Assembly (NCBI GenBank): GCA_029582155.1 | Contig: CM055909.1 | Span: 14,604,616-14,668,615 of the forward strand | Reading direction: 5' to 3' | Source of the DNA: Panopea generosa | Lineage: Eukaryota > Mollusca > Bivalvia > Adapedonta > Hiatellidae | DNA: 64,000 nucleotides | The notes under the pieces: generated by a model | Database searches by the model: none | What the model was told of the DNA's origin: nothing | The model's input: only the letters and a program-made list of their open reading frames with translations | Shown: positions 2,155-57,375 of the stretch, in pieces | How the letters are laid out: each line of letters begins with the position of its first letter | Position numbering within the stretch: the stretch's first letter is position 1 | Made by a program: the position numbers and the translations under genes

Positions 2155-2976
2155 TCATTTTGACTGTGAGAAAGGCAATAGGTCAGTTTCAGTCATAATC
2201 CGATGCACATTGTTGTGAAGATCCTTTATAAGAACTGTACCATCTGATGACCAGCAGCCCTGTATAACTTTGGACTTCACCAGACAGCCGGCCTGATAAA
2301 GTAACGATCCTCGATAACGGGTTAAGTCCTCGTTGATATAGACTTTTGCATAGCCATGGTCTTTAGCGAGCTTCCTTTGATTGAAGAGCTTTTGTCGCGC
2401 TCGATATGTGGCCATCTTAACGATAATGTCACGTGGTCTTGATGCTTTTGTGCTTCCAACCCTGTGACTCCTGTCAATCTCATCAAGAGATATGTTGGCA
2501 TTTACAGCCTTTGCCAGTTCAAGAACAATAGAGTCGGTAGATTCGCTTGGGGATTCCTTGATGCCTGAAACTCGAATACAGTTTCTGCGACTGTATTGTT
2601 CTGCTGCATCTGCAGCGGACTCAAGCTTAGTTATTTTGGACACGAGCTCCTTATTAGTTTGTTTAAGCTCTGTGTTTTCGTCCTGAAGCGCAGACAGCTT
2701 TTCGTTGAGGCCCTTTACCACACCGTCGACGATAAAGGTGATCATTTCAGTGATCTGGTGTTGGAAGGTATTTCTTAGGACATCCGCAATACCTTTTATG
2801 TCGCCCTCACTCAATGATATTTTTGTTTCTGTTTCCATCGCAGAGATTTCAGAAACTTCGGATGCGTCGAACGAGGCTGACGATACTCTGTTTTTCTTAA
2901 GTTCAGTATCGAATTCGGGGGAGGAGAGTTCTCTCTTTTTCTCGTTGGGTTTGTTCGGCGTAGACGAGTCACTCAT
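2155..2976 (-). CDS. LINE-type ORF1 protein (coiled coil, RRM-like and C-terminal domains), intact, no ORF2
   Basis: Uninterrupted 273-codon frame from ATG (2974-2976) to a stop at 2155. It resembles ORF1 proteins of L1/CR1-type non-LTR retrotransposons, nucleic-acid-binding chaperones that coat the element RNA. Residues 1-60 are Ser/Glu/Lys-rich and probably disordered. Residues about 85-125 form a Leu/Glu/Lys coiled coil (LNEKLSALQDENTELK). 'EQYSRRNCIRVSGIKES' at about 125-142 matches the conserved entry into the RRM-like domain. 'VYINEDLTRYRGSLL' and 'WSSDGTVLIKD' in the last 80 residues match the C-terminal domain. Family membership is inferred from these motifs. No endonuclease or reverse transcriptase follows within the 2.1 kb available downstream. 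It could be a 3'-deleted LINE, an ORF1-only element like mammalian HAL1, or a captured copy. The intact frame suggests recent activity or selection. Confidence 0.72.
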   Translation of the reverse strand: MSDSSTPNKPNEKKRELSSPEFDTELKKNRVSSASFDASEVSEISAMETETKISLSEGDIKGIADVLRNTFQHQITEMITFIVDGVVKGLNEKLSALQDENTELKQTNKELVSKITKLESAADAAEQYSRRNCIRVSGIKESPSESTDSIVLELAKAVNANISLDEIDRSHRVGSTKASRPRDIIVKMATYRARQKLFNQRKLAKDHGYAKVYINEDLTRYRGSLLYQAGCLVKSKVIQGCWSSDGTVLIKDLHNNVHRIMTETDLLPFSQSK

Positions 2977-3690
2977 TATCTGAAGGGGACTATATCTTTT
3001 TTGAACAGTATACTATTTAAAAAATATAGCGTGACCTTGTATAGTTCATTCATATATCGATTCCCATTCACACAGAGATAAAGTCAATGTAAACAAGCAT
3101 TGCACTAAAGGTGATACTGCAATAAAAGTACAGGTAGCTTCAGAGAATCGGCAAACATGGCTCTCATGGAAGAAGTTGTGCGATCACATTTATAACCGGG
3201 TCGTCATCATTACTAGCTCAATCATTGCACGAAAGCTGCCGCCTCAAAAAGTTCGAAAACGTTAGCAAATTACATTATTTCCTTCACCTTGTTTAAATTT
3301 TAAACACTCGCCGCCATTGATCACGTGATATATCTGTTTGATAAAAGTATACCTAAGTGTTTGTGTGATTGTACTTCTGATATTTGTTGGTTATGCATAT
3401 ATAGTGGTGGATACTCAAACATGTCGGGTGTTTTCATCGTTAACAAAAGTATCTCGTCACACTGTGACCTCAAATCATAACTTCCAATTATTTTGATTTA
3501 AACTATGTTACATCTTTAAATGTCGCAACCGTTTCATTTTTCATTCCTGTCATGAATCGTAAAAATCTACCCCCAAATAATTTTTGGCCGACCCACAAGA
3601 ACTTCATGGTTTCTGGGAAATATCTCATTTGCCTTAATCATGTGTATCAAACAATTCTACCAAACAGCACCGTAGTTGAAATGAAATGTT
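2977..3690. other. AT-rich sequence 5' of the ORF1, nothing recognised
   Basis: This is where a 5' UTR of the minus-strand ORF1 element would lie. No poly(A), target duplication or inverted repeat bounding the element was found. 'tgatcacgtgat' at about 3318 is a short palindrome containing an E-box (CACGTG). A short plus-strand frame at 3552-3779 has no recognisable domain. Confidence 0.4.
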
Positions 3691-16390: not shown

Positions 16391-16396
16391 AACTTG

Positions 16397-16510
16397 AGAA
16401 GCAGGGAAGCAGTTTAGTGGATGGAGTGTTGGCTGTTCAAGCCAGAGTTTGCGGGTTTGGCCTCCAGCTCGACCCCAGAAACAACACTTAGAACTGGTTT
16501 CACTCTAGTC
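16397..16510 (+). mobile_element. tRNA-like SINE head, family C
   Basis: 'gcagtttagtggatggagtg' resembles a tRNA box A region, and 'gcgggtttggcctcc' about 40 bp later a degenerate box B. It is followed by 'caacacttagaactggttt', matching the body of the copy at 46250. It is joined directly to a second tRNA-like head (family A) at 16525, giving a dimeric arrangement. Confidence 0.6.
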
Positions 16511-32700: not shown

Positions 32701-32888
32701 ATTAATAAGAATGAGTCTGGAATATTCTGTTTTGTTTATACCATTTAACTATTTTTTGTGTCAGAACATGGTAATTTCCCAACTATTTTATTTATAATTA
32801 CTATATTTTTAAACAATAATGAATTAAATATTATAAATGTTGTTCAAAGTAGCTGCAATGAGGATCAGCACACAGTTGCAGTAGTGCA

Positions 32889-35800
32889 GTGGATAGGGTT
32901 CTGACTGTGCCGGCTAGAGGTTGTGGATAGGGTTCTGACTGTGCCAGCTAGAAGTTGTGGATAAGGTACTGACTGCCAGCTAGAGGTTGTGGATAAGGTA
33001 CTGACTGTGCCAGCTAGAGGTTGTGGATAGGGTTCTGACTGTGCCAGCTAGAGGTTGTGGATAGGGTTCTGACTGTGCGGCTAGAGGTTGTGGATAGGGT
33101 ACTGACTGTGCCGGCTAGAGGTTGTGGATAGGGTATGACTGTGCCAGCTAGAGGTTGTGGATAGGTACTGACTGTGCCAGCTAGAGGTTTGGATAGGGTA
33201 CTGACTGTGCCGGCTAGAGGTTGTGGATAGGGTACTGACTGCAGCTAGAGGTTGTGGATAGGGTACTGACTGTGCGCTAGAGGTTGTGGATAGGGTACTG
33301 ACTGTGCCGGCTAGAGGTTGTGGATAGGGTACTGACTGTGCGGCTAGAGGTTGTGGATAGGGTACTGACTGTGCGGCTAGAGGTTGTGGATAGGGTACTG
33401 ACTGTGCCGGCTAGAGGTTGTGGATAGGGTACTGACTGTGCCGGCTAGAGGTTGTGATAGGTCTGACTTCGGCTAGAGATAGGTAGGTACTGACTGTGCC
33501 AGCTAGAAGTTGTGGATAGGGTACTGACTGTGCCGGCTAGAGGTTGTTGATAGGTTTCTGACTGCCAGCTAGAGGTTGTGGATAGGGTTCTGACTGCCAG
33601 CTAGAGGTTGTGGATAGGGTACTGACTGCCAGCTAGAGGTTGTGGATAGGGTACTGACTGTGCCAGCTAGAGGTTGTGGATAGGGTACTGACTGTGCCGG
33701 CTAGAGGTTGTTGATAGGGTACTGACTGCCAGCTAGAGGTTGTGGATAGGGTTCTGACTGTGCCAGCTAGAGATAGTGGATAGGGTACTGACTGTGCCGG
33801 CTAGAGGTTGTGGATAGGGTACTGACTGTGCCAGCTAGAGGTTGTGGATAGGGTACTGACTGTGCCGGCTAGAGGTTGTGGATAGGGTACTGACTGTGCC
33901 AGCTAGAGGTTGTGGATAGGGTACTGACTGTGCCGGCTAGAGGTTGTGGATAGGGTACTGACTGTGCCAGCTAGAAGTTGTGGATAGGGTACTGACTGTG
34001 CCGGCTAGAGGTTGTTGATAGGGTTCTGACTGCCAGCTAGAGGTTGTGGATAGGGTTCTGACTGCCAGCTAGAGGTTGTGGATAGGGTACTGACTGCCAG
34101 CTAGAGGTTGTGGATAGGGTACTGACTGTGCCAGCTAGAGGTTGTGGATAGGGTACTGACTGTGCCAGCTAGTGGTTGTGGATAGGGTTCTGACTGCCAG
34201 CTAGAGGTTGTGGATAGGGTTCTGACTGCCAGCTAGAGGTTGTGGATAGGGTACTGACTGTGCCAGCTAGAGGTTGTGGATAGGGTACTGACTGTGCCAG
34301 CTAGAGGTTGTGGATAGGGTACTGACTGTGCCAGCTAGAGGTTGTGGATAGGGTTCTGACTGCCAGCTAAATTTGTGGATAGGGTTCTGACTGTGCCGGC
34401 TAGAGGTTGTGGATAGGGTACTGACTGTGTCGGCTAGAGGTTGTGGATAGGGTTCTGACTGTGCCGGCTAGAGGTTGTGGATAGGGTACTGACTGCCGGC
34501 TAGAGGTTGTGGATAGGGTACTGACTGTGCTGGCTAGAGGTTTGGATAGGGTACTGACTGTGCCGGCTAGAGGTTGTGGATAGGGTACTGACAGTGCTGG
34601 CTAGAGGTTGTGGATAGGGTACTGACTGTCCCGGCTAAAAGTTGTGGATAGGGTACTGACTGTGCCGGCTAGAGGTTGTGGATAGGGTACTCGCTGTGCC
34701 GGCTAGAGGTTGTGGATAGGGTTCTGACTGTGCCGGCTAGAGGTTGGGATAGGGTACTGACTGTGGCAGCTTGAGGTTGCGGATAGGGTACTAACTGTGT
34801 CGGCTAAAGGTTGTGGATAGGGTACTGACTGTGCCGACTAGAGGTTGTGGATAGGGTTCTGACTGCCGGCTAGAGGTTGTGGATAGGGTACTGACTGTGC
34901 CAGCTAGAGGTTGTTGATAGGGTTCTGACTGTGCCGGCTAGAGGTAGTGGATAGCGTTCTGACTGTGCCAGCTAGTGGTTGTGGATAGGGTACTGACTGT
35001 GCCAGCTAGAGGTTGTGGATAGGGTTCTGACTGTGCCAGCTAGTGGTTGTGGATAGGGTACTGACTGTGCCGGCTAGAGGTTGTGGATAGGGTTCTGATT
35101 GTGCCAGCTATAAGTTGTGGATAGGGTACTGACTGTGCCGACTAGAGGTTGTGGATAGGGTACTGACTGTGCCGGCTAGAGGTGGATAGAGTTCTGACTG
35201 TGCCGGCTAGAGGTTGTGGAAAGGGTCCTGACTGTGCCAGCTAGAGGTTGTGGATAGGGTTCTGACTGTGCCAGCTAGAGGTTGTGGATAGGGTTCTGAC
35301 TGTGCCAGCTAGTGGTTGTGGATAGGGTACTGACTGTGCCAGCTAGTGGTTGTGGATAGGGTACTGACTGTGCCAGCTAGAGGTTATGGATAGGGTACTG
35401 ACTGTGCCAGCTAGAGGTTGTGGATAGGGTTCTGACTGTGCCAGCTAGTGGTTGTGGATAGGGTACTGACTGTGCCGGCTAGAGGTTGTGGATAGGGTTC
35501 TGACTGTGCCAGCTAGAGGTTGTGGATAGGGTACTCGCTTTGCTGGCTAGAGGTTGTGGATAGGGTTCTGACTGTGCCAGCTAGAGGTTGTGGATAGGGT
35601 TCTGATTGTGCCAGCTATAAGTTGTGGATAGGGTACTGACTGTGCCGGCTAGAGGTTGTGGATAGGGTACTGACTGTGCCGGCTAGAGGTGGATAGAGTT
35701 CTGACTGTGCCAGCTAGAGGTTGTGGAAAGGGTCCTGACTGTGCCAGCTAGAGGTTGTGGATAGGGCTCTGACTGTGCCAGCTAGAGGTTGTGGATAGGG

Positions 35801-38800
35801 TTCTGACTGTGCCAGCTAGAGGTTGTGGATAGGGTACTCGCTTTGCTGGCTAGAGGTTGTGGATAGGGTTCTGACTGTGCCAGCTAGAGGTTGTGGATAG
35901 GGTACTGACTGTGCCGGCTAGAGGTTGTTGATAGGGTTCTGACTGTGCCAGCTAGAGGTAGTGGATAGGGTTCTGACTGTGCCAGCTAGTGGTTGTGGAT
36001 AGGGTACTGACTGTGGCGGCTAGAGGTTGTGGTTAGGGTTCTGATTGTGCCAGCTATAAGTTGTGGATAGGGTACTGACTGTGCCGGCTAGAGGTTGTGG
36101 ATAGGGTACTGACTGTGCCGGCTAGAGGTGGATAGAGTTCTGACTGTGCCAGCTAGAGGTTGTGGAAAGGGTCCTGACTGTGCCAGCTAGAGGTTGTGGA
36201 TAGGGCTCTGACTGTGCCAGCTAGAGGTTGTGGATAGGGTACTCGCTTTGCTGGCTAGAGGTTGTGGATAGGGTTCTGACTGTGCCAGCTAGAGGTTGTG
36301 GATAGGGTACTGACTGTGCCGGCTAGAGGTTGTGGATAGGGTACTTGCTGTGCTGGCTAGAGGTTGTGGATAGGGTACAACTATGCCGGCTAGAGGTTCG
36401 GGATAGGGTACTGACTGTGGCAGCTTGAGGTTGCGGATAAGGTACTGACTGTGCCGGCTAGAGGTTGGGGATAAGGTACTGACTGTGCCGACTAGAGGTT
36501 GTGGATAGGGTTCTGACTGTGCTGGCTAGAGGTTGTGGATAGGGTACTGACTGCCAGCTAGAGGTTGTGGATAGGGTTCTGACTGTGCCGGCTAGAGGTT
36601 GTTGATAGGGTTCTGACTGTGCAGACTAGAGGCTGTGGATAGGGTTCTGACTGTGCCAGCTAGTGGTTGTGGATAGGGTACTGACTGCCGGCTAGAGGTT
36701 GTGGATAGGGTTCTGATTGTGCCAGCTAGAGGTTGCGGATAGGGTACTGACTGTGCCTGCTAGAGGTTGTGGATAGGGTACTGACTGTGCCGGCTAGAGG
36801 TTGTGGATAGGGTACTGACTGTGCCGGCTAGAGGTGGATAGAGTTCTGACTGTGCCAGCTAGAGGTTGTGGAAAGGGTCCTGACTGTGCCAGCTAGAGGT
36901 TGTGGATAGGGCTCTGACTGTGCCAGCTAGAGGTTGTGGATAGGGTTCTGACTGTGCCAGCTAGAGGTTGTGGATAGGGTTCTGACTGTGCCAGCTATAG
37001 GTTGTGGATAGGGTACTGACTGTGCCGGCTAAAGGTTGTGGATAGGGTACTGACTGTGCCGGCTAGAGGTTGTGGATAGGGTACTCGCTGTGCTGGCTAG
37101 AGGTTGTGGATAGGGTTCTGATTGTGCCAGCTATAGGTTGTGGATAGGGTACTGACTGTGCCGGCTAAAGGTTGTGGATAGGGTACTGACTGTGCCGGCT
37201 AGAGGTGGATAGAGTTCTGACTGTGCCAGCTAGAGGTTGTGGATAGGGTTCTGACTGTGCCAGCTAGAGGTTGTGGATAGGGTTCTGACTGTGCCAGCTA
37301 GAGGTTGTGGATAGGGTTCTGACTGTGCCGGCTAGAGGTTGTGGAAAGGGTCCTGACTGTGCCAGCTAGAGGTTGTGGATAGGGCTCTGACTGTGCCAGC
37401 TAGAGGTTGTGGATAGGGTTCTGACTGTGCCAGCTAGAGGTTGTGGATAGGGTTCTGACTGTGCCAGCTAGAGGTTGTGGATAGGGTTCTGACTGTGCCA
37501 GCTAGAGGTTGTGGATAGGGTACTCGCTGTGCTGGCTAGAGGTTGTGGATAGGGTTCTGATTGTGCCAGCTATAGGTTGTGGATAGGGTACTGACTGTGC
37601 CGGCTAGAGGTTGTGGATAGGGTACTGACTGTGCCGGCTAGAGGTGGATAGAGTTCTGACTGTGCCAGCTAGAGGTTGTGGATAGGGTACTGACTGTGCC
37701 GGCTAGAGGTTGTGGATAGGGTTCTGACTGTGCCAGCTAGAGGTTGTGGAAAGGGTCCTGACTGTGCCAGCTAGAAGTTGTGGATAGGGTACTCGCTTTG
37801 CTGGCTAGAGGTTGTGGATAGGGTTCTGACTGTGCCAGCTAGAGGTTGTGGATAGGGTACTGACTGTGCCAGCTAGAGGTTGTGGATAGGGTACTCGCTT
37901 TGCTGGCTAGAGGTTGTGGATAGAGTTCTGACTGTGCCAGCTAGAGGTTGTGGATAGGGTACTCGCTTTGCTGGCTAGAGGTTGTGGATAGGGTTCTGAC
38001 TGTGCCAGGTAGAGGTTGTGGATAGGGTACTGACTGTGCCGGCTAGAGGTTGTGGATAAGGTACTCGCTTTGCTGGCTAGAGGTTGTGGATAGAGTTCTG
38101 ACTGTGCCAGCTAGAGGTTGTGGATAGGGTTCTGACTGTGCCAGCTAGAGGTTGTGGATAGGGTTCTGACTGTGCCAGCTAGAGGTTGTGGATAGGGTAC
38201 TCGCTTTGCTGGCTAGAGGTTGTGGATAGAGTTCTGACTGTGCCAGCTAGAGGTTGTGGATAGGGTTCTGACTGTGCCAGCTAGAGGTTGTGGATAGGGT
38301 ACTGACTGTGCCGGCTAGAGGTTGTGGAGAGGGTACTGACTGTGCCAGCTAGAGGTTGTGGAAAGGGTCCTGACTGTGCCAGCTAGAAGTTGTGGATAGG
38401 GTACTGACTGTGCCGGCTAGAGGTTGTGGATAGGGTACTCGCTTTGCTGGCTAGAGGTTGTGGATAGGGTTCTGACTGTGCCAGCTAGAAGTTGTGGATA
38501 GGGTTCTGACTGTGCCAGCTAGAGGTTGTGGATAGGGTACTCGCTGTGCTGGCTAGAGGTTGTGGATAGGGTTCTGACTGTGCCAGCTAGAGGTTGTGGA
38601 TAAGGTACTCGCTTTGCTGGCTAGAGGTTGTGGATATGGTACTCGCTTTGCTGGCTAGAGGTTGTGGATAGGGTTCTGACTGTGCCAGCTAGAAGTTGTG
38701 GATAGGGTACTCGCTGTGCTGGCTAGAGGTTGTGGATAGGGTTCTGACTGTGCCAGCTAGAGGTTGTGGATAGGGTACTCGCTTTGCTGGCTAGAGGTTG

Positions 38801-41800
38801 TGGATAGGGTTCTGACTGTGCCAGCTAGAGGTTGTGGATAGGGTACTTGCTGTGCTGGCTAGAGGTTGTGGATAGGGTACGACTATGCCGGCTAGAGGTT
38901 CGGATAGGGTTCTGACTGTGCCAGCTAGAGGTTGTGGATAAGGTACTGACTGTGCCAGCTAGAGGTTGTGGATAGGGTTCTGACTGTGGCAGCTTGAGGT
39001 TGTGGATAGGGTACTGACTGTGCCGGCTAGAGGTTGGGGATAAGGTACTGACTGTGCCGACTAGAGGTTGTGGATAGGGTTCTGACTGTGCTGGCTAGAG
39101 GTTGTGGATAGGTTACTGACTGTGCCAGCTAGAGGTTGTTGATAGGGTTCTGACTGTGCCAGCTAGAGGTTGTGGATAGGGTTCTGACTGTGCCAGCTAG
39201 GGGTTGTGGATAGGGTACTGACTGTGCCGGCTAGAGGTTGTGGATAGGGTTCTGATTGTGCCAGCTAGAGGTTGCGGATAGGGTACTGACTGTGCCGGCT
39301 AGAGGTTGTGGATAGGGTACTGACTGTGCCGGCTAGAGGTTGTGGATAGGGTACTGACTGTGCCGGCTAGAGGTGGATAGAGTTCTGACTGTGCCGGCTA
39401 GAGGTTGTGGATAGGGTTCTGACTGTGCCAGCTAGAGGTTGTGGATAGGGTCCTGACTGTGCCAGCTAGAGGTTGTGGATAGGGTTCTGACTGTGCCAGC
39501 TAGAGGTTGTGGATAGGGTACTCGCTGTGCTGGCTAGAGGTTGTGGATAGGGTACTGACTGTGCCGGCTAGAGGTTGTGGATAGGGTACTGACTGTGCCG
39601 GCTAGAGGTGGATAGAGTTCTGACTGTGCCGGCTAGAGGTTGTGGAAAGGGTCCTGACTGTGCCAGCTAGAGGTTGTGGATAGGGTTCTGACTGTGCCAG
39701 CTAGAGGTTGTGGATAGGGTACTCGCTGTGCTGGCTAGAGGTTGTGGATAGGGTTCTGACTGTGCCAGCTAGAGGTTGTGGATAGGGTACTCGCTGTGCC
39801 GGCTAGAGGTTGTGGATAGGGTTCTGACTGTGCCAGCTAGAGGTGGATAGAGTTCTGACTGTGCCAGCTAGAGGTTGTGGATAGGGTACTCGCTGTGCCG
39901 GCTAGAGGTTGTGGATAGGGTTCTGACTGTGCCAGCTAGAGGTTGTGGATAGGGTACTCGCTGTGCCAGCTAGAGGTTGTGGATAGGGTTCTGACTGTGC
40001 CAGCTAGAGGTTGTGGATAGGGTTCTGACTGTGCCAGCTAGAGGTTGTGGATAGGGTACTCGCTGTGCCGGCTAGAGGTTGTGGATAGGGTTCTGACTGT
40101 GCCAGCTAGAGGTTGTGGATAGGGTACTCGCTGTGCCGGCTAGAGGTTGTGGATAGGGTACTCGCTGTGCCGGCTAGAGGTTGTGGATAGGGTTCTGACT
40201 GTGCCAGCTAGAGGTTGTGGATAGGGTACTCGCTGTGCCGGCTAGAGGTTGTGGATAGGGTACTCGCTGTGCTGGCTAGAGGTTGTGGATAGGGTTCTGA
40301 CTGTGCCAGCTAGAGGTTGTGGATAGGGTACTCGCTGTGCTGGCTAGAGGTTGTGGATAGGGTTCTGACTGTGCCAGCTAGAGGTTGTGGATAGGGTACT
40401 CGCTGTGCCAGCTAGAGGTTGTGGATACGGTACTCGCTGTGCTGGCTAGAGGTTGTGGATAGGGTTCTGACTGTGCCAGCTAGAGGTTGTGGATAGGGTA
40501 CTCGCTGTGCCGGCTAGAGGTTGTGGATAGGGTACTCGCTGTGCTAGCTAGAGGTTGTGGATAGGGTTCTGACTGTGCCAGCTAGAGGTTGTGGATAGGG
40601 TACTCGCTGTGCCAGCTAGAGGTTGTGGATAGGGTACTCGCTGTGCTAGCTAGAGGTTGTGGATAGGGTTCTGACTGTGCCAGCTAGAGGTTGTGGATAG
40701 GGTACTGACTGTGCCGGCTCGAGGTTGTGGATAGGGTACTGACTGTGCCAGCTAGAGGTTGTGGATAGGGTTCTGACTGTGTCGGCTAGAGGTTGTGGAT
40801 AGGGTTCTGACTGTGCCAGCTAGGGGTTGTGGATAGGGTACTGACTGTGCCGGCTAGAGGTTGTGGATAGGGTACTTGCTGTGCCGGCTAGAGGTTGTGG
40901 ATAGGGTACTTGCTGTGCCGGCTAGAGGTTGTGGATAGGGTACTCGCTGTGCCGGCTAGAGGTTGTGGATAGGGTACTGACTGTGCCAGCTAGAGGTTGT
41001 GGATAGGGTACTGACTGTGCCAGCTAGAGGTTGTGGATAGGGTACTGACTGTGCCAGCTAGAGGTTGTGGATAGGGTACTTGCTGTGCCGGCTAGAGGTT
41101 GTGGATAGGGTTCTGACTGTGCCAGCTAGAGGTTGTGGATAGGGTACTCGCTGTGCCGGCTAGAGGTTGTGGATAGGGTACTGACTGTGCCAGCTAGAGG
41201 TTGTGGATAGGGTTCTGACTGTGCCGGCTAGAGGTTGTGGATAGGGTACTCGCTGTGCCGGCTAGAGGTTGTGGATAGGGTACTGACTGTGCCGGCTAGA
41301 GGTTGTGGATAGGGTTCTGACTGTGCCAGCTAGAGGTTGTGGATAGGGTACTCGCTGTGCCGGCTAGAGGTTGTGGATAGGGTACTGACTGTGCCGGCTA
41401 GAGGTTGTGGATAGGGTTCTGACTGTGCCAGCTAGAGGTTGTGGATAGGGTACTCGCTGTGCCAGCTAGAGGTTGTGGATAGGGTACTGACTGTGCCGGC
41501 TAGAGGTTGTGGATAGGGTTCTGACTGTGCCAGCTAGAGGTTGTGGATAGGGTACTCACTGTGCCGGCTAGAGGTTGTGGATAGGGTACTGACTGTGCCG
41601 GCTAGAGGTTGTGGATAGGGTTCTGACTGTGCCAGCTAGAGGTTGTGGATAGGGTACTCGCTGTGCCAGCTAGAGGTTGTGGATAGGGTACTGACTGTGC
41701 CAGCTAGAGGTTGTGGATAGGGTACTGACTGCCAGCTAGAGGTTGTGGATAGGGTACTGACTGTGCCAGCTAGAGGTTGTGGATAGGGTACTTGCTGTGC

Positions 41801-44001
41801 CGGCTAGAGGTTGTGGATAGGGTTCTGACTGTGCCAGCTAGAGGTTGTGGATAGGGTACTCGCTGTGCCGGCTAGAGGTTGTGGATAGGGTTCTGACTGT
41901 GCCAGCTAGAGGTTGTGGATAGGGTACTTGCTGTGCCAGCTAGAGGTTGTGGATAGGGTACTTGCTGTGCCGGCTAGAGGTTGTGGATAGGGTTCTGACT
42001 GTGCCAGCTAGAGGTTGTGGATAGGGTACTCGCTGTGCCGGCTAGAGGTTGTGGATAGGGTTCTGACTGTGCAGCTAGAGGTTGTGGATAGGGTACTTGC
42101 TGTGCCAGCTAGAGGTTGTGGATAGGGTTCTGACTGTGCCGGCTAGAGGTTGTGGATAGGGTACTTGCTGTGCCAGCTAGAGGTTGTGGATAGGGTACTT
42201 GCTGTGCCGGCTAGAGGTTGTGGATAGGGTACTTGCTGTGCCGGCTAGAGGTTGTGGATAGGGTTCTGACTGTGCCAGCTAGAGGTTGTGGATAGGGTAC
42301 TCGCTGTACCGGCGAGAGGTTGTGGATAGGGTTCTGACTGTGCCAGCTAGAGGTTGTGGATAGGGTACTTGCTGTGCCAGCTAGAGGTTGTGGATAGGGT
42401 ACTTGCTGTGCCGGCTAGAGGTTGTGGATAGGGTTCTGACTGTGCCAGCTAGAGGTTGTGGATAGGGTACTCGCTGTGCCGGCTAGAGGTTGTGGATAGG
42501 GTTCTGACTGTGCCAGCTAGAGGTTGTGGATAGGGTACTTGCTGTGCCAGCTAGAGGTTGTGGATAGGGTTCTGACTGTGCCGGCTAGAGGTTGTGGATA
42601 GGGTACTTGCTGTGCCAGCTAGAGGTTGTGGATAGGGTACTGACTGTGCCGGCTAGAGGTTGTGGATAGGGTACTCGCTGTGCCGGCTAGAGGTTGTGGA
42701 TAGGGTACTTGCTGTGCTGGCTAGAGGTTGTGGATAGGGTACTCGCTGTGCTGGCTAGAGGTTGTGGATAGGGTACGACTATGCCGGCTAGAGGTTGTGG
42801 ATAGGGTTCTGACTGTGCCAGCTAGAGGTTGTGGATAGGGTACTCGCTGTGCCGGCTAGAGGTTGTGGATAGGGTTCTGACTGTGCCAGCTAGAGGTTGT
42901 GGATAGGGTACTCGCTGTGCTAGCTAGAGGTTGTGGATAGGGTTCTGACTGTGCCAGCTAGAGGTTGTGGATAGGGTACTGACTGTGCCGGCTAGAGGTT
43001 GTGGATAGGGTACTGACTGTGCCGGCTAGAGGTTGTGGATAGGGTACTGACTGTGCCGGCTAGAGGTTGTGGATAGGGTACTCGCTGTGCCGGCTAGAGG
43101 TTGTGGATAGGGTACTCGCTGTGCCGGCTAGAGGTTGTGGATAGGGTACTGACTGTGCCGGCTAGAGGTTGTGGATAGGGTACTCGCTGTGCCGGCTAGA
43201 GGTTGTGGATAGGGTACTCGCTGTGCCGGCTAGAGGTTGTGGATAGGGTACTCGCTGTGCCAGCTAGAGGTTGTGGATAGGGTACTCGCTGTGCCGGCTA
43301 GAGGTTGTGGATAGGGTACGACTATGCCGGCAAGAGGTTCGGGATAGGGTACTGACTGTGGCAGCTTGAGGTTGCGGATAGGGTACTGACTGTGCCGGCT
43401 AGAGGTTGGGGATAAGGTACTGACTGTGCCGACTAGAGGTTGTGGAAAAGGTACTTACTGTGCCGGCTATAGGTTGTGTATAAGGTACTGACTGTGCCGG
43501 CTAGAGGTTGAAGATATGGTACTGACTGTGCCTGCTAGTGGTTGTGGATAAGGTACAGACTGTGCCGGCTAGAAGTTGTGGATAGGGTACTGACTGTCCC
43601 GGCTAAAAGTTGCGGATAAGGTACTGACTGTGCCGGCTAGAGGTTGCGGATAAGGGTTGACTGTGTCGGCTAGAGGTTTGGGATAAGGTACTGACTGTGC
43701 CGGCTAGAGGTTGTGGATAAGGTACTGACTGTGTCGGCTAGAAGTTTGGGATAAGGTACTGACTGTGCCAGCTAAAGGTTGACGATAAGGTACTGACTGT
43801 GCTGGCTAGAGGTTGGAAATAAGGTACTGACTGCTGGCTAGAGGTTGTGGATAAGGTACTCACTGTGCCGGCTAGAGGTTGTGGATAAGGGTCTGACTGT
43901 GCTGGCTAGAGGTTGGAAATAAGGTACTGACTGCTGGCTAGAGGTTGTGGATAAGGTACTGACTGTTCCGGCTCGAGGTTGTGGATAGGGTACTGACTGT
44001 G
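32889..44001. repeat. 11.1-kb minisatellite of ~330 units of 34 bp, SINE-head derived
   Basis: The unit is 'gatagggtactgactgtgcc' followed by 'ggctagaggttgtg' (34 bp, with 29-33 bp deletion variants). The left edge is 'gcagtagtgcagtggatagggttctgac'. There the first unit is embedded in a tRNA-like D-arm, and the period starts at 'gtggatag' (32889, then 32923). The unit end 'ctagaggttgtgg' matches the segment just before the B box in family C SINEs ('cagaggttgtgggttcaatcc', antisense at about 57310). Units fall into TGACTG and TCGCTG types. A composite with a shortened 'gaggtggatagagttctgac' unit recurs between 35.1 and 39.9 kb. The core (about 39.7-43.3 kb) is the most homogeneous and both edges are diverged, as expected from unequal exchange. 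No frame longer than about 60 codons occurs in it. Confidence 0.93.
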
Positions 44002-44092
44002 CTTCAAAGAAAGACCATTATTATTATCCCATGATGCCCCTTCAAAGAAAGACCATAATTATTATCTCATGATGCCCCTTCAAAGAAAGACC
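44002..44092. repeat. 38-bp direct repeat, 2.4 copies
   Basis: 'cttcaaagaaagaccattat' plus 'tattatcccatgatgccc' repeats at 44002, 44040 and 44078. It abuts the end of the 34-bp array without a gap. Confidence 0.9.
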
Positions 44093-44722
44093 AGATACAG
44101 GAAAAATTATGATTTAAATTCGAATATAACTGCCAGATGTTGATAGTCCCATCTTCTACAATTATATCGAATGTCATAATTATAGGGGCCATTCAGTTCA
44201 TCATTTTCTTTAGTATAGATTGCAACAGTGCAGTATTCAGCAATTAATGATGCTAATTAATTTTTTAAGTTGCTTATTAAGATGGTACATTATGATCATG
44301 CTTTATTGAGATAAAGACGTGTCTGTTTGCTTCTTTGTTCAAATCAATCATTCTGTCTCCCGATTGGCTGTCAGCAGATGATGATATATGCCATGGCAGT
44401 GGGGGTGAAGTGCATGAATGTTACCGGCTGCAATATATTTGGGGTTGGTTTTTTTGGCAGATTGACTTATAGCTGTTCGAGGAACATGTGACCTGACATT
44501 TATTGTATTTAAAAATCTTAATCTGATTGCATTAATGTCGAAAATATTCCTATGATTTTATATAAATATTGTGATCAAATAATAAGTGACTGTCCTTTGT
44601 TACAAGTTTGTTTTTATGTACTGTTATTGTGATGTCACAGATATTAATATAGATGTCCATATTAAACTCAGTAACATTCTGTGACAGCAGGTGTCAGTGT
44701 GACTTATACTGCAGGTGTGCTC
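44093..44722. other. AT-rich spacer between arrays
   Basis: No gene or repeat recognised. Confidence 0.4.
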
Positions 44723-45315
44723 GTGAAGTTGTCATTGTCACATGTATAACTGAAGTGTTAGTGAAGTTGTCATTGTCACTTGTATAACAGAAGTGTTAGT
44801 GAAGTTGTCATTGTCACTTGTATAACAGAAGTGTTAGTGATGTTGTCATTGTCACTTGTATAACAGAAGTGTCAGTGAAGTTGTCATTGTCACTTGTATA
44901 ACAGAAGTGTCACTGAAGTTGTCATTGTCACATGTATAACAGAAGTGTCAGTGAAGGTGTCATTGTCACTTGTATAACAGAAGTGTCAGTGAAGTTGTCA
45001 TTGTCACATGTATAACAGAAGTGTCAGTGAAGTTGTCATTGCCACTTGTATAACAGAAGTGTCAGTGAATTTGTCATTGTCACTTGTATAACAGAAGTGT
45101 CAGTGAAGTTGTCATTGTCACTTGTATAACAGAAGTGTTAGTGAAGTTGTCAATGTCACATGTATAACAGAAGTGTCAGTGAAGTTGTCATTGTTACTTG
45201 TATAACAGAAGTGTTAGTGAAGTTGTCAATGTCACATGTATAACAGAAGTGTTAGTGAAGTTGTCTTTGTCACTTGTATAACAGAAGTGTTAGTGAAGTT
45301 GTCATTGTCACTTGT
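44723..45315. repeat. 38-bp minisatellite, ~15.6 units
   Basis: The unit is 'agaagtgtcagtgaagttgt' plus 'cattgtcacttgtataac'. Units are highly similar, with recurrent variants gtcagtg/gttagtg and cttgta/catgta. It is unrelated in sequence to the 38-bp repeat at 44.0 kb despite the equal period. Confidence 0.95.
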
Positions 45316-46243
45316 AGTGCAGATTTGATATACTTGTGACAATACCAATGCCACTTGTACAGCTGTGAACAGATGCACATGGTAGTGAAGTGTCAGTGAC
45401 ACTTCTATAACAAGATCCACACTAAATGGAGGCATGTTGCAAGTGATCACATGATTACATTTTCAATAAATGGTTGTTTTTTCCAGATACTGTGAGAAAA
45501 GCACATAATTGTATGTTTCGCCTTTTAAGATGATTGTGCACCATGATTCTATATTGGCAATGACGTTAAGAGACTTATTTAGATTTAAGTGTATGATACA
45601 TTACGGTGCTTTAAATGTGAGATTCAATATGGTGTCATTGTAGATGACCGTTTACTTACCTAAATGGAGGAAAACGTGCCTACTTGTCTACCAAGCCTCC
45701 TAATGTGTTCGCTCTCAAGCTCAATTTGTCTCAGAAAATCATTGATATTGCGGAAGGTAACGGATGATGTCTTGGTAACGAATGACGTCTCGATGACTTG
45801 CCATAATTTGTAAGTGCAGAACACTGTATGTGTTAATTAAATGTGAAGTAAGAAATGTGGAAAATATCCATATAAGTGTCCTTCCCCCTAGGCTCATAAT
45901 ACACTGCTGGCAGACGCCATGTACTTCAATGGTTAGGCCATTAATTAGAGCTGGTTCTGTATGGGAAACCGGTGGTAAAGATCAGGCAGTGGAAGTATTG
46001 GGTTTGATTTATGCTCATTAAATTTTTTTTACTCAAATATTTGAAGAATAAGAAAACTAATGGTATCGCCTTGGTGTCTGGGTCGAGAGTTCAAACTTTT
46101 CAGAATATTTTCTTGGAAGTTAAGTTTAGTTCCCGGCAGTTATAACGCCTAAATTCAATTTCTTTTCTTTTTTTCTTCTTTTATATTCAGTGGAGTGAGA
46201 TATACATTAATACAGATTACTCTGTACATGACGACTAGGATTA
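45316..46243. other. AT-rich noncoding stretch
   Basis: 'ggataatgacgtcttggtaacgaatgacgtctc' type short duplications occur at about 45760-45795. No gene recognised. Confidence 0.35.
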
Positions 46244-46244
46244 T

Positions 46245-46400
46245 TGGGAGAGAGTGGTAGTGTTGTGGGAAGATTGTTGGCTGCTCACACCGGAGTTTCC
46301 GAGTTCAATCCCCAACTTGATCCTATGCCGCTAAAAGATCAACACTTAGTACTGGTTCTACCCAGAAATCTAAGACCTCAGAATGAGTACAAGTTGAACT
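46245..46400 (+). mobile_element. tRNA-like SINE, family C
   Basis: Head 'tggtagtgttgtgggaagat', 'ttggctgctcacaccgg', B box 'gagttcaatcccca', then 'acttgatcctatg' and 'caacacttagtactggttc'. The same order appears at 16397 and antisense at 57230-57370. The open frame across it (46244-46594) is a chance frame. A second decayed B-box-like stretch ('ggtagtaggtttgagcc') lies at about 46590. Confidence 0.6.
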
Positions 46401-50083: not shown

Positions 50084-52860
50084 CACATAGCCGTGGCAGA
50101 GGATCAAACCCACGACCCTCAGATCATGGAGCTGAGGCTCTACGACTGGACCACATGCTCCACACATAGCTGTCGCAGAAGATCAAATCCACGTCCCTCT
50201 GATCATGGAGGTGATGCTCTACGACTGAACCAAGTGCTCCACACATAGCTGTCACAGAAGATCAAACCCAAGACCCTTCGATCATGGAGCTGAGGCAATA
50301 CGACTAAACCACGTGCACCACACCTAGCTGTTGCAGAAGATCAAACCCACGGCCCTCAGATCATGGAGCTGATGCTCTACGACTGAACAACGTGCTCCAC
50401 ACATAGCTGTCGCAGAAGATCAAACCCACGACCTTCTGATCATGTAGGTGATGCACTACGACTGGACCACGTGCTCCGCACATAGTTGTCGCAGAAGATC
50501 AAACCCACGGCCCTCCATGATCATGGAGCTGATGCTCTACAACTGGGCCACGTGCTCCACACATAGCTGTCGCAGAAGATCAAACCCACGGCCCTCCATG
50601 ATCATGTAGGTGATGCTCTACGACTGGACCACGTGCTCCACACATAGCTGTCACAGAAGATCAAACCCACGACCCTCAGATCATGGAGGTGATGCTCTAC
50701 GACTGAACCACGTGCTCCACACATAGTTGTAACAGAAGATCAAACCCACGACCCTCTGATCATGTAGGTGATGCTCTACGACTGGACCACGTGCTCCACA
50801 CATAGTTGTCGCAGAAGATCAAACCCACGGCCCTCCATGATCATGGAGCTGATGCTCTACAACTGGGCCACGTGCTCCACACATAGCTGTCGCAGAAGAT
50901 CAAACCCATGACCTTCTGATCATGTAGGTGATGCTCTACGACTGGACCACGTGCTCCACACATAGTTGTCACAGAAGATCAAACCCACGGCCCTCCATGA
51001 TCATGGAGCTGATGCTCTACAACTGGGCCACGTGCTCCACACATAGCTGTCGCAGAAGATCAAACCCACGGCCCTCCATGATCATGTAGGTGATGCTCTA
51101 CGACTGGACCACGTGCTCCACACATAGCTGTCACAGAAGATCAAACCCACGACCCTCCGATCATGGAGGTGATGCTCTACGACTGAACCACATGCTCCAC
51201 ACATAGCTGTAGCAGAAGATCAAACCCACGACCCTCCGATCATGGAGGTGATGCTCTACGACTGAACCACGTGCTCCACACATAGTTGTAACAGAAGATC
51301 AAACCCACGACCCTCCGATCATGGAGGTGATGCTCTACGACTGAACCACGTGCACCACACCTAGCTGTTGCAGAAGATCAAACCCACGACCCTCCGATCA
51401 TGGAGGTGATGCTCTACGACTGAACCACGTGCTCCACACATAGTTGTCGCAGAAGATCAAACCCACGACCCTCTGATCATGTAGGTGATGCTCTACGACT
51501 GGACCACGTGCTCCACACATAGCTGTAGCAGAAGATCAAACCCACGACCCTCTGATCATGTAGGTTATGCTCTACGACTGGACCACGTGCTCCACACATA
51601 GTTGTCGCAGAAGATCAAACCCACGACCCTCCGATAATGGAGGTGATGCTCTACGACTGAACCACATGTTCCACACATAGTTGTCGCAGAAGATCAAACC
51701 CACGACCCTCCGATAATGGAGGTGATGCTCTACGACTGAACCACATGCTCCACACATAGCTGTCGCAGAAGATCAAACCCACGACCCTCCGATCATGTAG
51801 GTGATGCTCTACGACTGGACCACGTGCTCCACACATAGTTGTCACAGAAGATCAAACCCACGGCCCTCAGATCATGGAGCTGATGCTTTACGACTGAACC
51901 ACGTGCTCCACACATAGTTGTGACAGAAGATCAAACCCACGGCCCTCAGATCATGGAGCTGATGCTCTACGACTGGACCACGTGCTCCACACATAGTTGT
52001 CACAGAAGATCAAACCCACGGCCCTCAGATCATGGAGCTGATGCTCTACGACTGGGCCACGTGCTCCACACATAGCTGTCACAGAAGATCAAACCCACGG
52101 CCCTCAGATCATGGAGCTGATGCTTTACGACTGAACCACGTGCTCCACACATAGTTGTGACAGAAGATCAAACTCACGGCCCTCAGATCATGGAGCTGAT
52201 GCTTAACGACTGAACCACGTGCTCCACACATAGTTGTGACAGAAGATCAAACCCACAGCCCTCAGATCATGGAGCTGATGCTCTACGACTGGGCCACGGC
52301 TCCACACATAGTTGTCACAGAAGATCAAACCCATGGCCCTCAGATCATGGAGCTGATGCTCTACAACTGGGCCACGTGCTCCACACATAGTTGTCGCAGA
52401 AGATCAAACCCACGGCCCTCCATGATCATGGAGGTGATGCTCTACAACTGGGCCACGTGCTCCACACATAGTTGTCACAGAAGATCAAACCCACGGCCCT
52501 CAGATCATGGAGCTGATGCTCTACGACTGGACAACGTGCTCCACACATAGTTGTCTCAGAAGATCAAACCCACGGCCCTCCATGATCATGGAGCTGATGC
52601 TTTACAACTGGGCCACGGCTCCACACATAGTTGTCACAGAAGATCAAACGCACGGCCCTCCATGATCATGGAGCTGATGCTCTACAACTGGGCCATGGCT
52701 CCACACATAGTTGTCACAGAAGATCAAACCCACGGCTCTCTGATCATGGAGCTGATGCTCTACGACTGGGCCACGGCTCAACACATAGTTGTCACAGAAG
52801 ATCAAATCCACGGCCCTCAGATCATGGAGCTGATGCTCTACGACTGGGCCACGCTCTCCT
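50084..52860 (-). repeat. ~35 tandem copies of a 79-82 bp tRNA-like SINE head
   Basis: On the minus strand each unit reads 'tggagcacgtggtccagtcg', 'tagagcatcacctacatgat', 'cagagggtcgtgggtttgat', 'cttctgcgacagctatgtg'. The box A-like part (tggtccagtcgtagagca) differs from TGGYNNAGTGG at one position; the box B-like part (gggtttgatctt) is weaker. A solo copy at 57.9 kb has the canonical 'tggtccagtggtagaaca'. Subtypes with 'ccatgatcatgg' are 3 bp longer. Units alternate between 'gtagg' and 'gagct' types, and some blocks of several units are duplicated. Many short open frames on both strands are translations of the repeat. Whether Pol III recognises any unit is unknown. Confidence 0.92.
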
Positions 52861-53560
52861 CACATTAAGCCAAGTGTGTTTGTCACACTGAGTACCTGGT
52901 GATAAATGATCCAATCAATTTGAAGACATTGCTTCCATCAGCAGTGCATCCATTCATGTAAGATGTCAGCAATTCTTTTTCAGTTCTTTCCACAGATCTG
53001 GAAGTAGTTGCTTGGTATAGCAGTATAGAATAGTATAGCAGTGTTGAATTTTAGCAATCATTATATGACAACATTGTTAATCAAACATCAATTGGCCGAT
53101 TCTCAAAAACCATGCTTTAATCTTCTGTCTTGTCTATAGCAGAATTGTATGACAGAGTGCAATTACGTGGAGTGGACAATTATTGATTGGCCAATTAACA
53201 ATGGCAGCAACCAATCTTTTGGTTGTTGCAATTGCTGCGTTTTACTACTTTCTGTTGTGTGACTGGGGTCCATTAGGAGCATTGTTTATCCAGAATAAAA
53301 CGGTTTCACGAGAAACTTGGGTAAGCGATACTGTAAACTGGCCGTCACTTCAAACGACAGGCATTTACCGATTTATTAATTGCCTATTAATTGCCTATGA
53401 ATTGTCCGCATTTGTCGCTCTGTTTCTTAGAAAGATACTTATGTAGTTATCATAAGTGACAATTGGTAACTTTCACAACTCAACATTCTTAATTATGATA
53501 CCATCTTATATAGAGATGTGCATACTACAGTTTTGTCCTTTTTTGTCATCAAAATAGTTT
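52861..53560. other. AT-rich stretch with one small hydrophobic frame
   Basis: No repeat recognised, apart from 'agtatagaatagtatagcag' at about 53020. The small frame at 53201-53446 is listed separately. Confidence 0.4.
53201..53446 (+). CDS. possible small membrane protein, unrecognised
   Basis: 81 codons from an ATG with good context (aacaATGg). Residues 4-30 (NLLVVAIAAFYYFLLCDWG) and 58-80 (FINCLLIAYELSAFVALFL) are hydrophobic enough to span a membrane. A short polar middle carries 'NKTVSRETWVSDTVNW'. No homologue is recognised and there is no promoter or poly(A) signal that I can tie to it. It may be a chance frame or a single exon. Confidence 0.15.
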   Translation: MAATNLLVVAIAAFYYFLLCDWGPLGALFIQNKTVSRETWVSDTVNWPSLQTTGIYRFINCLLIAYELSAFVALFLRKILM

Positions 53561-55345
53561 TTAGCTGTACTGGCAATTTAGGCCAGAAGGACTTATGCGA
53601 TTGTGGTTAATCCATCGTCTGTCGTCTGTCATCCGTCGTCTGAAACCACTAGGCCAATTAAACTGAAACTTCACACGAATGTTTTTATTGCATAGGAGAC
53701 TATACAGAACATTTTTTTTTTTCGATTGGAAATTCAAGATGGCAATGATACTAAAAATATTCCAAAACTTAAAAGATCTTCTACTCATGAACGGCTCAAC
53801 AGATTTTCAAAATGTTTATGTAGTAACGATAACCAACACGAATGTTTTTATTGCATAGGAGACTATACAGAACATTTTTTTTTTTCGATTGGAAATTCAA
53901 GATGGCAATGATACTAAAAATATTCCAAAACTTAAAAGATCTTCTACTCATGAACGGCTCAACAGATTTTCAAAATGTTTATGTAGTAACGATAACCAAC
54001 TATAGTTTTGTTAGAGCTGTTCAAATTGTGTCCCTAGTATTAAAAATAACCCCGCCTCGAGGGTTCAAGTAGGGGACACAATTTTTTTTTTAAATTGAAA
54101 TGATTTTGTCTATATCTTCACAGAAGCATTGTTTGGTGAAGGAGGTTCAGATTTGTAAAAATGACTGGGTTCCACTGTCTTAAGGGGTCAGGAGGGGCCC
54201 CAAAGGGTAAAATTTGGGAATTACAAAAATCGTTTTCTTAAGAACCGGTTTGTCAAGATTTTTTCATATTTGGCATAAATTATCCGTATGTGTTGAGACT
54301 CTGCAAGGGAACTTAGAATTTTACATAGGAATACTATGGGAAAACAGAAAATTCTCCTTTTTTTCATCTATTTAGGCAAAAATATTATTCAATTTAAGTT
54401 CTGAAGTATTGTCTAGTCATAGGAAATAAGATTTGGCTCAATAACAAATATGATTTTGTTTGATATGAAGGATTGACTTTCTAAAAGGGGCTAGGTAGGG
54501 GTCACAAAATGAGTCATATTTGTTCATATTTGATATAAATTATCCCTATGATTAAGAGTTCTAAGTTTGTACAAATCAAAGGACACTGTGCTGTATAGAG
54601 GCCCTGTAAGGGGTCTTTGAGTTTAACATAGGTATACTATGGGAAAATGGAAAATTCTCATTTTTTTTTTGTCCATTTGTGTAAATATGTTGTTCAATTT
54701 GAGATCTATAATGTTGTCTAGTAACAATAAATTTGATTTTGTTCAGTAAAGAGGATTGAATTTCCAGAAGTGGCCAGGGGACGACGGATGGGGCAATAAG
54801 GTTAAAATTGGGAATTTTCACAAATTTCCTCTCAATAACCTTTCAGTCAAACTAGTTCATATTTGATATAAATTATCCTTACATCAGCAAGGATTGAAGA
54901 TTCTGCATATCAAGGGGCTGGGATATATTGGGGCCCTTTAAAGTGACTTTTACTTAGGAATATTATAGGGAAAATTGAATTTTATCATTTTGCATCCATG
55001 TGTACAAAAAAACTTCTTTTTAAAATTTGAATCATTTCTGCTAATAACAAATCGCTAAGAGTGGGTGATTGAAGTTCTGACAAATTAATGGGCTGGACTG
55101 TATAAGGGTTCTGTATAGGGAACTATATTTTTTTAACAGATGAATGGTATGGGAATTTAAAGTATTTCCTTTTCATAACAATTAAATTTTTGTTCAGTAT
55201 GGGTGTGGTTGGGGTATTTATCCATTAGTTGTTAAGACGACCACCCAAAAGAGGGTACCGGTAAATATTGTGGAATTTCAAAAAGTGCTTTGGCCACTAT
55301 GAGTCAGTAGGGCATCCTCAGGCCCTCTTGGGCCTCTTGTTTTAA
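53560..55345. repeat. long mollusc-type dispersed repeat
   Basis: It begins near 'ttttagctgtactggcaatt' and includes 'ccatcgtctgtcgtctgtca'. It contains repeated phrases 'tatttgatataaattatcc', 'catagg.atactatggga' and 'aaaattgggaatt' at 400-500 bp spacing. It ends 'caggccctcttgggcctctt' plus 'gtttt', a terminus I know from mollusc repeats. It appears to be a diverged array of related subunits. Noncoding. Confidence 0.65.
53673..53998. repeat. exact 163-bp tandem duplication
   Basis: Bases 53673-53835 and 53836-53998 appear identical on reading, including the 11-base T-run. The period is 163 bp ('cacgaatgtttttattgcat' at 53674 and 53837). This is either a very recent duplication or an assembly artefact. 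Confidence 0.93.
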
Positions 55346-57010: not shown

Positions 57011-57200
57011 ATCAAACTAAAATAAATTGGTATAACTCAAATGATGAAGTAGAGCTTATAATAACCCATAGCACATACTGACCCTATTACACTAAATAAA
57101 CACTCCTCTAATAACCAAGCCACCCCTACTACCCATCTTTATGAAAAATAAAAGTAGATTTCGAGTCTGGTTAGTTTGTACTAATTTATTTTAGTTTGAT
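57011..57200. mobile_element. 190-bp MITE with 22-bp inverted repeats
   Basis: 'atcaaactaaaataaattgg' plus 'ta' at 57011 is complementary (one mismatch) to the sequence ending 'attttagtttgat' at 57200. The interior is AT/C-rich and noncoding. The element abuts an antisense SINE. Confidence 0.8.
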
Positions 57201-57229
57201 TGCAATGACAGCTCAGAGGTTATAATTAT

Positions 57230-57375
57230 GAACTGCTCTCAAGTCTGCAATATGGGTAGAACCAGTATTGAGTATTGTTCTATGAAAGGCATTGGGTCAA
57301 GCTGGGGATTGAACCCACAACCTCTGGTGTGAGGGGTAAACACACTATCAATTAAAATACAGCCCCGCTTTGTCA
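57230..57375 (-). mobile_element. tRNA-like SINE, family C, antisense
   Basis: The minus strand reads 'tagtgtgtttacccctcaca', 'ccagaggttgtgggttcaat', 'ccccagcttgaccc', 'caatactggttctaccc'. 'agaggttgtgg' here is the same string that ends each unit of the 11-kb minisatellite, and here it continues into a proper B box. This supports the proposed origin of that array. Confidence 0.65.

Follow-up and report, generated by a model that had tools for sequence, protein, structure and literature searches.

The 64,000-nucleotide stretch analysed here, hereafter the window, comes from the bivalve Panopea generosa (assembly GCA_029582155.1, contig CM055909.1, positions 14,604,616 to 14,668,615; G000:C16:14604616-14668615 in our numbering of a genome of 1.47 Gb in 39 contigs), and it carries a minisatellite of about 11 kb built of 34-bp units. 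We conclude with good confidence that this array grew from the front part of one inserted copy of a dispersed tRNA-like short interspersed element (SINE). An earlier reading made from the letters of the window alone (the sequence-only reading) had proposed that the unit is the D-arm to T-arm segment of such an element, and this proposal is supported by a match between a SINE profile and the left edge of the array and by the spacing of 19 of 30 SINE copies, both described below.

Tandem Repeats Finder (TRF) places the array on the plus strand at 32889-44002 (period 34, 329.6 copies, match 89%, score 16869). A wrap-around alignment to the consensus resolves it into 330 units, 283 of them exactly 34 bp long, with 101 distinct aligned forms; the earlier estimate of about 11 kb and about 330 units was correct. 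With this unit length and number, the array falls among minisatellites, whose units are roughly 10-100 bp; such loci also tend to differ in length among individuals, and the analysis covered one assembly. The majority sequence of the unit is GTGGATAGGGTACTGACTGTGCCGGCTAGAGGTT, and the mean pairwise identity of the units is 89%. Two positions are split: position 12 (A in 201/330, T in 117/330) and position 24 (G in 164/330, A in 162/330). Searching the window for GTGGATAGGGTTCTGAC with at most 3 mismatches gave 310 matches, against a mean of 0.06 in shuffled sequence. The right-end units (43510-44002, plus strand) are the most diverged part of the array: the bin that starts at 43510 has 4.27 differences per unit, the other 21 bins 0.67-2.2. 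Exact repeats within the array reach 215 bp, the commonest offset at 100 bp is 439 bp (about 13 units), and the mean unit-to-unit distance is smallest at a lag of 13 units. These recurring blocks of units are probably the usual signs of unequal exchange.

The left edge links the array to its presumed parent. Here the A-box-like sequence TAGTGCAGTGG (32882-32892) leads into the first unit, after which the sequence jumps from GGTTGTGG back to GTGGATAG; both the box and the jump read as the sequence-only reading had quoted them. The box is composed of the end of a SINE 5'-end remnant at 32870-32888 (plus strand), reaching up to the D loop, and the next four bases. The remnant was delimited by an ungapped alignment of SINE profile positions 19-76 to 32870-32927, and the edge carries the SINE family head GTAGTG(C/T)AGTGGATAG. 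The first 34-bp unit (32889-32922, plus strand) runs from the GTGG of the D loop through the GGTT before the T stem, according to the junction, the unit alignment and the SINE profile. The array therefore begins with a longer terminal unit that continues to the SINE 5' end, one of the marks of SINE-derived satellites (sSats); two further marks are a unit that stems from a segment of a SINE present in the same genome, and at least four units, here 330. The earlier suggestion that the array had discarded both promoter boxes holds for the inner units and fails at the left edge, where the A box is kept.

The source family is abundant. A head pattern that joins the last part of the A box to the first part of the B box, AGTGGATAG-N19..25-GGTTGTGGGTTC, in which both GTGG words are fixed and their distance is free between 31 and 37 bp, occurs at 155 places in the genome and at none in the reversed control. 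SINEs with the 34-bp segment do exist, and their absence was one of two findings that the sequence-only reading had named as fatal to its proposal. Among 30 fetched copies with the head pattern, the GTGG-to-GTGG distance is exactly 34 bp, the period of the array, in 19, which makes 34 the commonest spacing. The SINE body motif has 2895 exact places in the genome and none in the control; 82 loci were distinguished among the 100 matches listed, of 2895. Dispersed copies, a head with A- and B-box-like sequences, a body and a common 3' end are the traits of a tRNA-related SINE; the two counts show the dispersal, and the body-anchored consensus shows the other traits in the order AAGCGGGGCGGTAGTG, then TAATGGATAG and GAGGTTGCGGGTTCGATCCCC, then the body and an AT-rich end. 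A tRNA origin of the SINE head has weak covariance-model support: the Rfam tRNA-clan models, run against 4 SINE loci, gave one weak match, to tRNA-Sec (24.5 bits, gathering score 47, E = 0.34).

Two profiles of this family were compared with the array. The body-anchored profile consists of 20 of 30 body-motif rows, chosen without regard to the D arm; the ten rows dropped were L048, L051, L052, L056 and L069-L073, from four array-bearing loci, and L058, in which the head is missing. Its match to 32870-32927 (E = 0.001 in 64 kb) spans 58 columns without a gap and reaches from the 5' terminus of the element as far as the T stem. With this profile the left edge scored 11.6 bits; the best of 2000 dinucleotide shuffles scored 2.2, and none of the 2000 was as good. 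The similarity of the left flank, whose disappearance on proper alignment was the second outcome named as fatal, thus survives, with 38 of the 58 columns identical. The head-anchored profile (26 of 30 rows; L011, L019, L020 and L031 were removed as duplicates) matches 32877-32926 with E = 2e-6; part of the array motif served to select its copies, and this profile therefore favours the array. The best head-anchored copy with 34-bp spacing is identical to 32870-32927 at 41 of 58 positions. Like the SINE consensus, each of the 12 units listed as closest to the SINE carries A at position 9; this base occurs there in 12 of the 330 array units.

Judged by exact patterns, the array occupies one locus in the genome. 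It holds all 86 genome copies of the 17-mer GTGGATAGGGTTCTGAC. Forward matches to the junction word AGAGGTTGYGGATAG number 231 in the genome, the same as in the window, and all are within the array; on the reverse strand there is a single match, L080, which is the start of a SINE and has no tandem units, and the reversed controls gave at least as many (1 and 8). The left-junction pattern occurs at 4 genome places, all in the array, and VAGAGGTTGTGGATAG at one, likewise inside it, with 1 and 1 in the reversed controls. The pattern GGTTGTGGATAG-N19..25-GGTTGTGGGTTC, expected of an array still joined to the B box, has no genome place. These patterns are exact, so that diverged intermediates could be missed.

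Several results weigh against the proposed origin. First, identity to the body-anchored consensus over 32870-32927 is low, at only the 38 of 58 positions given above, and where the search pattern fixes no base, 11/22 positions agree with the head consensus (shuffle p about 0.012). Second, the first unit does not stand out as the nearest to the SINE: it agrees at 23 of 34 positions, against an array mean of 22.4 and a best of 24 (in this comparison the head set had 20 rows, with the head of L018 counted twice, also as L019, and with L010 and L011 near-identical). Third, the two GTGG words of the array's parent correspond to ATGG and GCGG in the body-anchored consensus, and the 4-bp GTGG repeat therefore belongs to a minority of the SINE copies; the parent may have been such a minority copy, perhaps after CpG decay. 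Fourth, four exact genome patterns found no intermediates of the D-to-T-arm segment elsewhere, although diverged ones could escape them, and among 30 head-anchored loci TRF found no array overlapping the SINE match. Finally, the right edge does not show the other half of the element. The boundary is abrupt, and an unrelated 38-bp repeat of 2.4 copies follows (44002-44093, plus strand; TRF), in which the SINE 3' part is not recognised. Both profiles were searched against 43981-45000 without finding this part (the best match had E = 1.2 and a negative score, and the body-anchored profile gave none), and no target-site duplication was found between 43981-45000 and the 100 bases left of the array. 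With negative profiles and a longest shared word of 9 bp, a SINE 3' end or target-site duplication at the right edge was rejected. As no SINE 3' part is recognisable in the right flank, the right half of the element has probably been lost, been replaced or decayed. The right flank itself (44003-44500) has one genome match, itself. A further minisatellite lies 0.7 kb to the right of the array, at 44723-45316 (38 bp x 15.6, match 94%; TRF).

The SINE family seeds minisatellites repeatedly, and from other segments too. Tandem arrays of body segments lie inside the SINE in 4 of 25 loci from the first 30 body-motif places (L048, L051, L056 and L069), a rate that is inflated because arrays offer the body motif more places; L044 has a 15-bp doublet. 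Five SINE-internal arrays were mapped, of 22x34, 5x30, 4x30, 31x34 and 18x44 bp (L048, L051, L056, L074 and L075, the last at C1:56650693). Both SINE ends are kept around the array in four of them, and L048 is without the SINE head. In a comparison of flanks for target-site duplications, the 9-bp word TAAAGGAAA is common to both sides of L075, and only 6-bp words are shared at the four other loci tested. Read on the consensus, each of three breakpoint pairs of the body arrays has 2 bp in common. The flanks of the two loci with 34-bp units are dissimilar, and likewise those of the two with 30-bp units.

The junctions of these body arrays are widespread. Loci were clustered by coordinates among the matches listed (first contigs), and the sequence was read for the five mapped loci. 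The 30-bp junction has 279 genome places (0 in the control), and the 100 matches listed fall into 39 loci, 19 with at least two junctions and 20 with one exact junction; five of the 39, spaced 59-71 kb apart on C4, may represent one segmental duplication. For the 34-bp body junction there are 220 places (0 in the control) and 32 loci among the 100 matches listed, with at least two junctions in 21 and one in 11. At G000:C4:43451193-43451649, both junctions are interleaved, a mixed array by the listed coordinates. The sequence-only reading had called for a search for intermediates of 2-10 units; exact patterns found none for the D-to-T-arm segment, and such forms do exist for other segments of the same SINE. 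A blind genome sample of 30 kb contained 3 SINE matches, none overlapped by an array. One blind stretch (L079, G000:C9:40000001-40010000) is dense in arrays (51 bp x 24, 49 bp x 30, 49 bp x 54 and 69 bp x 15), which suggests that the genome may be minisatellite-rich; the two other blind stretches have few tandem arrays.

We propose the following course of events. A SINE copy would have inserted here with a GTGG in the D loop and another in the T stem, 34 bp apart. Slippage or unequal exchange at this 4-bp repeat would then have doubled the 34-bp stretch; the repeat is the reason for placing the first duplication there, and the mechanism, already suggested by the sequence-only reading, is plausible. 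Further unequal exchange or slippage may have raised the number to about 330 units, and the multi-unit blocks would reflect partial homogenisation. The SINE 5' end survives at the left edge, and the right half was probably lost. The inner units have neither complete Pol III (RNA polymerase III) box, and so no function is expected beyond that of an unstable, length-variable non-coding locus.

A variant of this course, overlapping with it in probability, places the first duplication during retroposition, by slippage of reverse transcriptase or through a retroposed SINE that already had two units, instead of DNA slippage after insertion. The body arrays speak for it: identical breakpoints recur at loci without flank similarity (L048/L074 and L051/L056), and loci with one exact junction are common (20/39 and 11/32 among the matches listed). 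By exact patterns, however, the junction of the window array is found nowhere else, so that a spreading lineage of the D-to-T-arm segment is not seen, and we regard the variant as a possible, clearly less favoured route. A wider proposal is tentative, with the odds somewhat against it: the SINE family might act as a genome-wide minisatellite generator, in which head and body segments bounded by short repeats duplicate repeatedly, some duplicates are retroposed and local growth follows. In that case the window array would be the only example from the head segment in this analysis and the longest of the arrays examined.

Growth from a tRNA gene or pseudogene and not from a SINE is improbable. 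Both sources share the layout between box A and the T stem, conservation is highest in the tRNA-like stretches, and the SINE 3' part is missing at 43981-45000; against this, the left edge runs ungapped to the SINE 5' end with the family head, SINE copies are abundant, as the body-motif count indicates, and seed arrays, and ARAGORN found no tRNA gene within the window. Still less probable is a chance likeness, in which an unrelated 34-bp minisatellite would have GTGGATAG and AGAGGTTGTGG in common with the SINE by accident: the low overall identity, the missing right-hand part and the few matches outside the pattern positions would suit it, but with either profile none of 2000 left-edge shuffles scores as high as the real sequence, the alignment is colinear and free of gaps, and the commonest spacing among the fetched SINE copies equals the array period.

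The window holds three other copies of the family. A nearly full-length one, the family C copy of the sequence-only reading, lies on the minus strand at 57164-57374 (E 2.4e-49 with the head-anchored and 8.7e-52 with the body-anchored profile) and reads ccagaggttgtgggttcaatcccc, as that reading had stated. Partial copies on the plus strand are at 46251-46384 (head-anchored profile, E 3.6e-25) and 16396-16505 (E 1.2e-19). In the fetched locus L018 (about positions 1455-1650 of that locus), the SINE head is tandemly duplicated at 107 bp, 5' flank included. A second tandem array occupies 50097-52865 (79 bp x 35; TRF). Its minus strand has A-box-like and B-box-like sequences at tRNA-like spacing, GTGGTCCAGTCGTAGAGC ... 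GGGCCGTGGGTTTGATC; its identity as a tRNA is unsupported, as ARAGORN on the consensus and the Rfam models found no tRNA. Two copies of a 163-bp stretch at 53673-54000 match at 100% (TRF) and represent either a very recent duplication or an assembly artefact. A 285-codon open frame lies on the minus strand at 2155-3012; its only Pfam match, to DivIC, is below the cut-off. We take this frame to resemble the ORF1 proteins of long interspersed elements.

The array belongs to an already known kind, the SINE-derived satellites described in squamates (PMC10702118) and in a limpet (PMC11121367), and it is a well-resolved example. Squamate sSats resemble it in that the tandem unit is part of a tRNA-related SINE, that a longer terminal unit at one end reaches the SINE terminus, and that single instances and SINEs with internal duplications occur (PMC10702118). 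The same study states that most primary duplications stay single instances and notes internal duplications of about 30 nt in SINEs (PMC10702118). The differences lie in unit length, 143 and 151 nt in the variants for which lengths are given and 34 bp here, and in the Panopea segment, which lies between the Pol III boxes, at one locus only, in another SINE family and host (PMC10702118). Several loci with shared, homogenised units, which exact genome patterns did not reveal for this array, are in that account a feature that the major squamate variants show and some others do not (PMC10702118). A preference for subtelomeric positions is a further sSat trait; the Panopea array lies at 14.6 Mb of C16. 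The same source reports sSats of up to 1000 units, and the idea that the array is among the longest SINE-derived minisatellites finds no support in this. In the limpet Patella caerulea, PcH-sat is likewise a tandem repeat that includes part of a SINE, a part with neither Pol III box; it is a 179-bp satellite from the 3' part of Nin-SINE that makes up about 10% of the genome, whereas the Panopea array is a single minisatellite locus from the 5' part of its SINE (PMC11121367).

No report of a 34-bp D-to-T-arm minisatellite was found in the titles and abstract starts of open-licence papers. B1 and Alu derive from 7SL, unlike the tRNA-like head segment that would have seeded the Panopea array. Minisatellites of mouse B1 and human Alu are also SINE-seeded, according to a review (PMC6947457). 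In the Haber and Louis model, as that review outlines it, the first duplicated motif is bounded by short direct repeats of 5-10 bp (PMC6947457). The bounding repeat is 4 bp here and 2 bp in the body arrays, shorter than in the model, and the fit is therefore loose.

The beginnings of tandem repeats are difficult to observe, since arrays lose the traces of their origin as they age. The Panopea array keeps the 5' end of its parent, whose family has many copies in this genome. For other segments of the same SINE, loci grade from those with a single exact junction up to arrays of dozens of units, and these often lie within an element that is complete in other respects. The first steps of satellite birth thus become testable in one species and its relatives.

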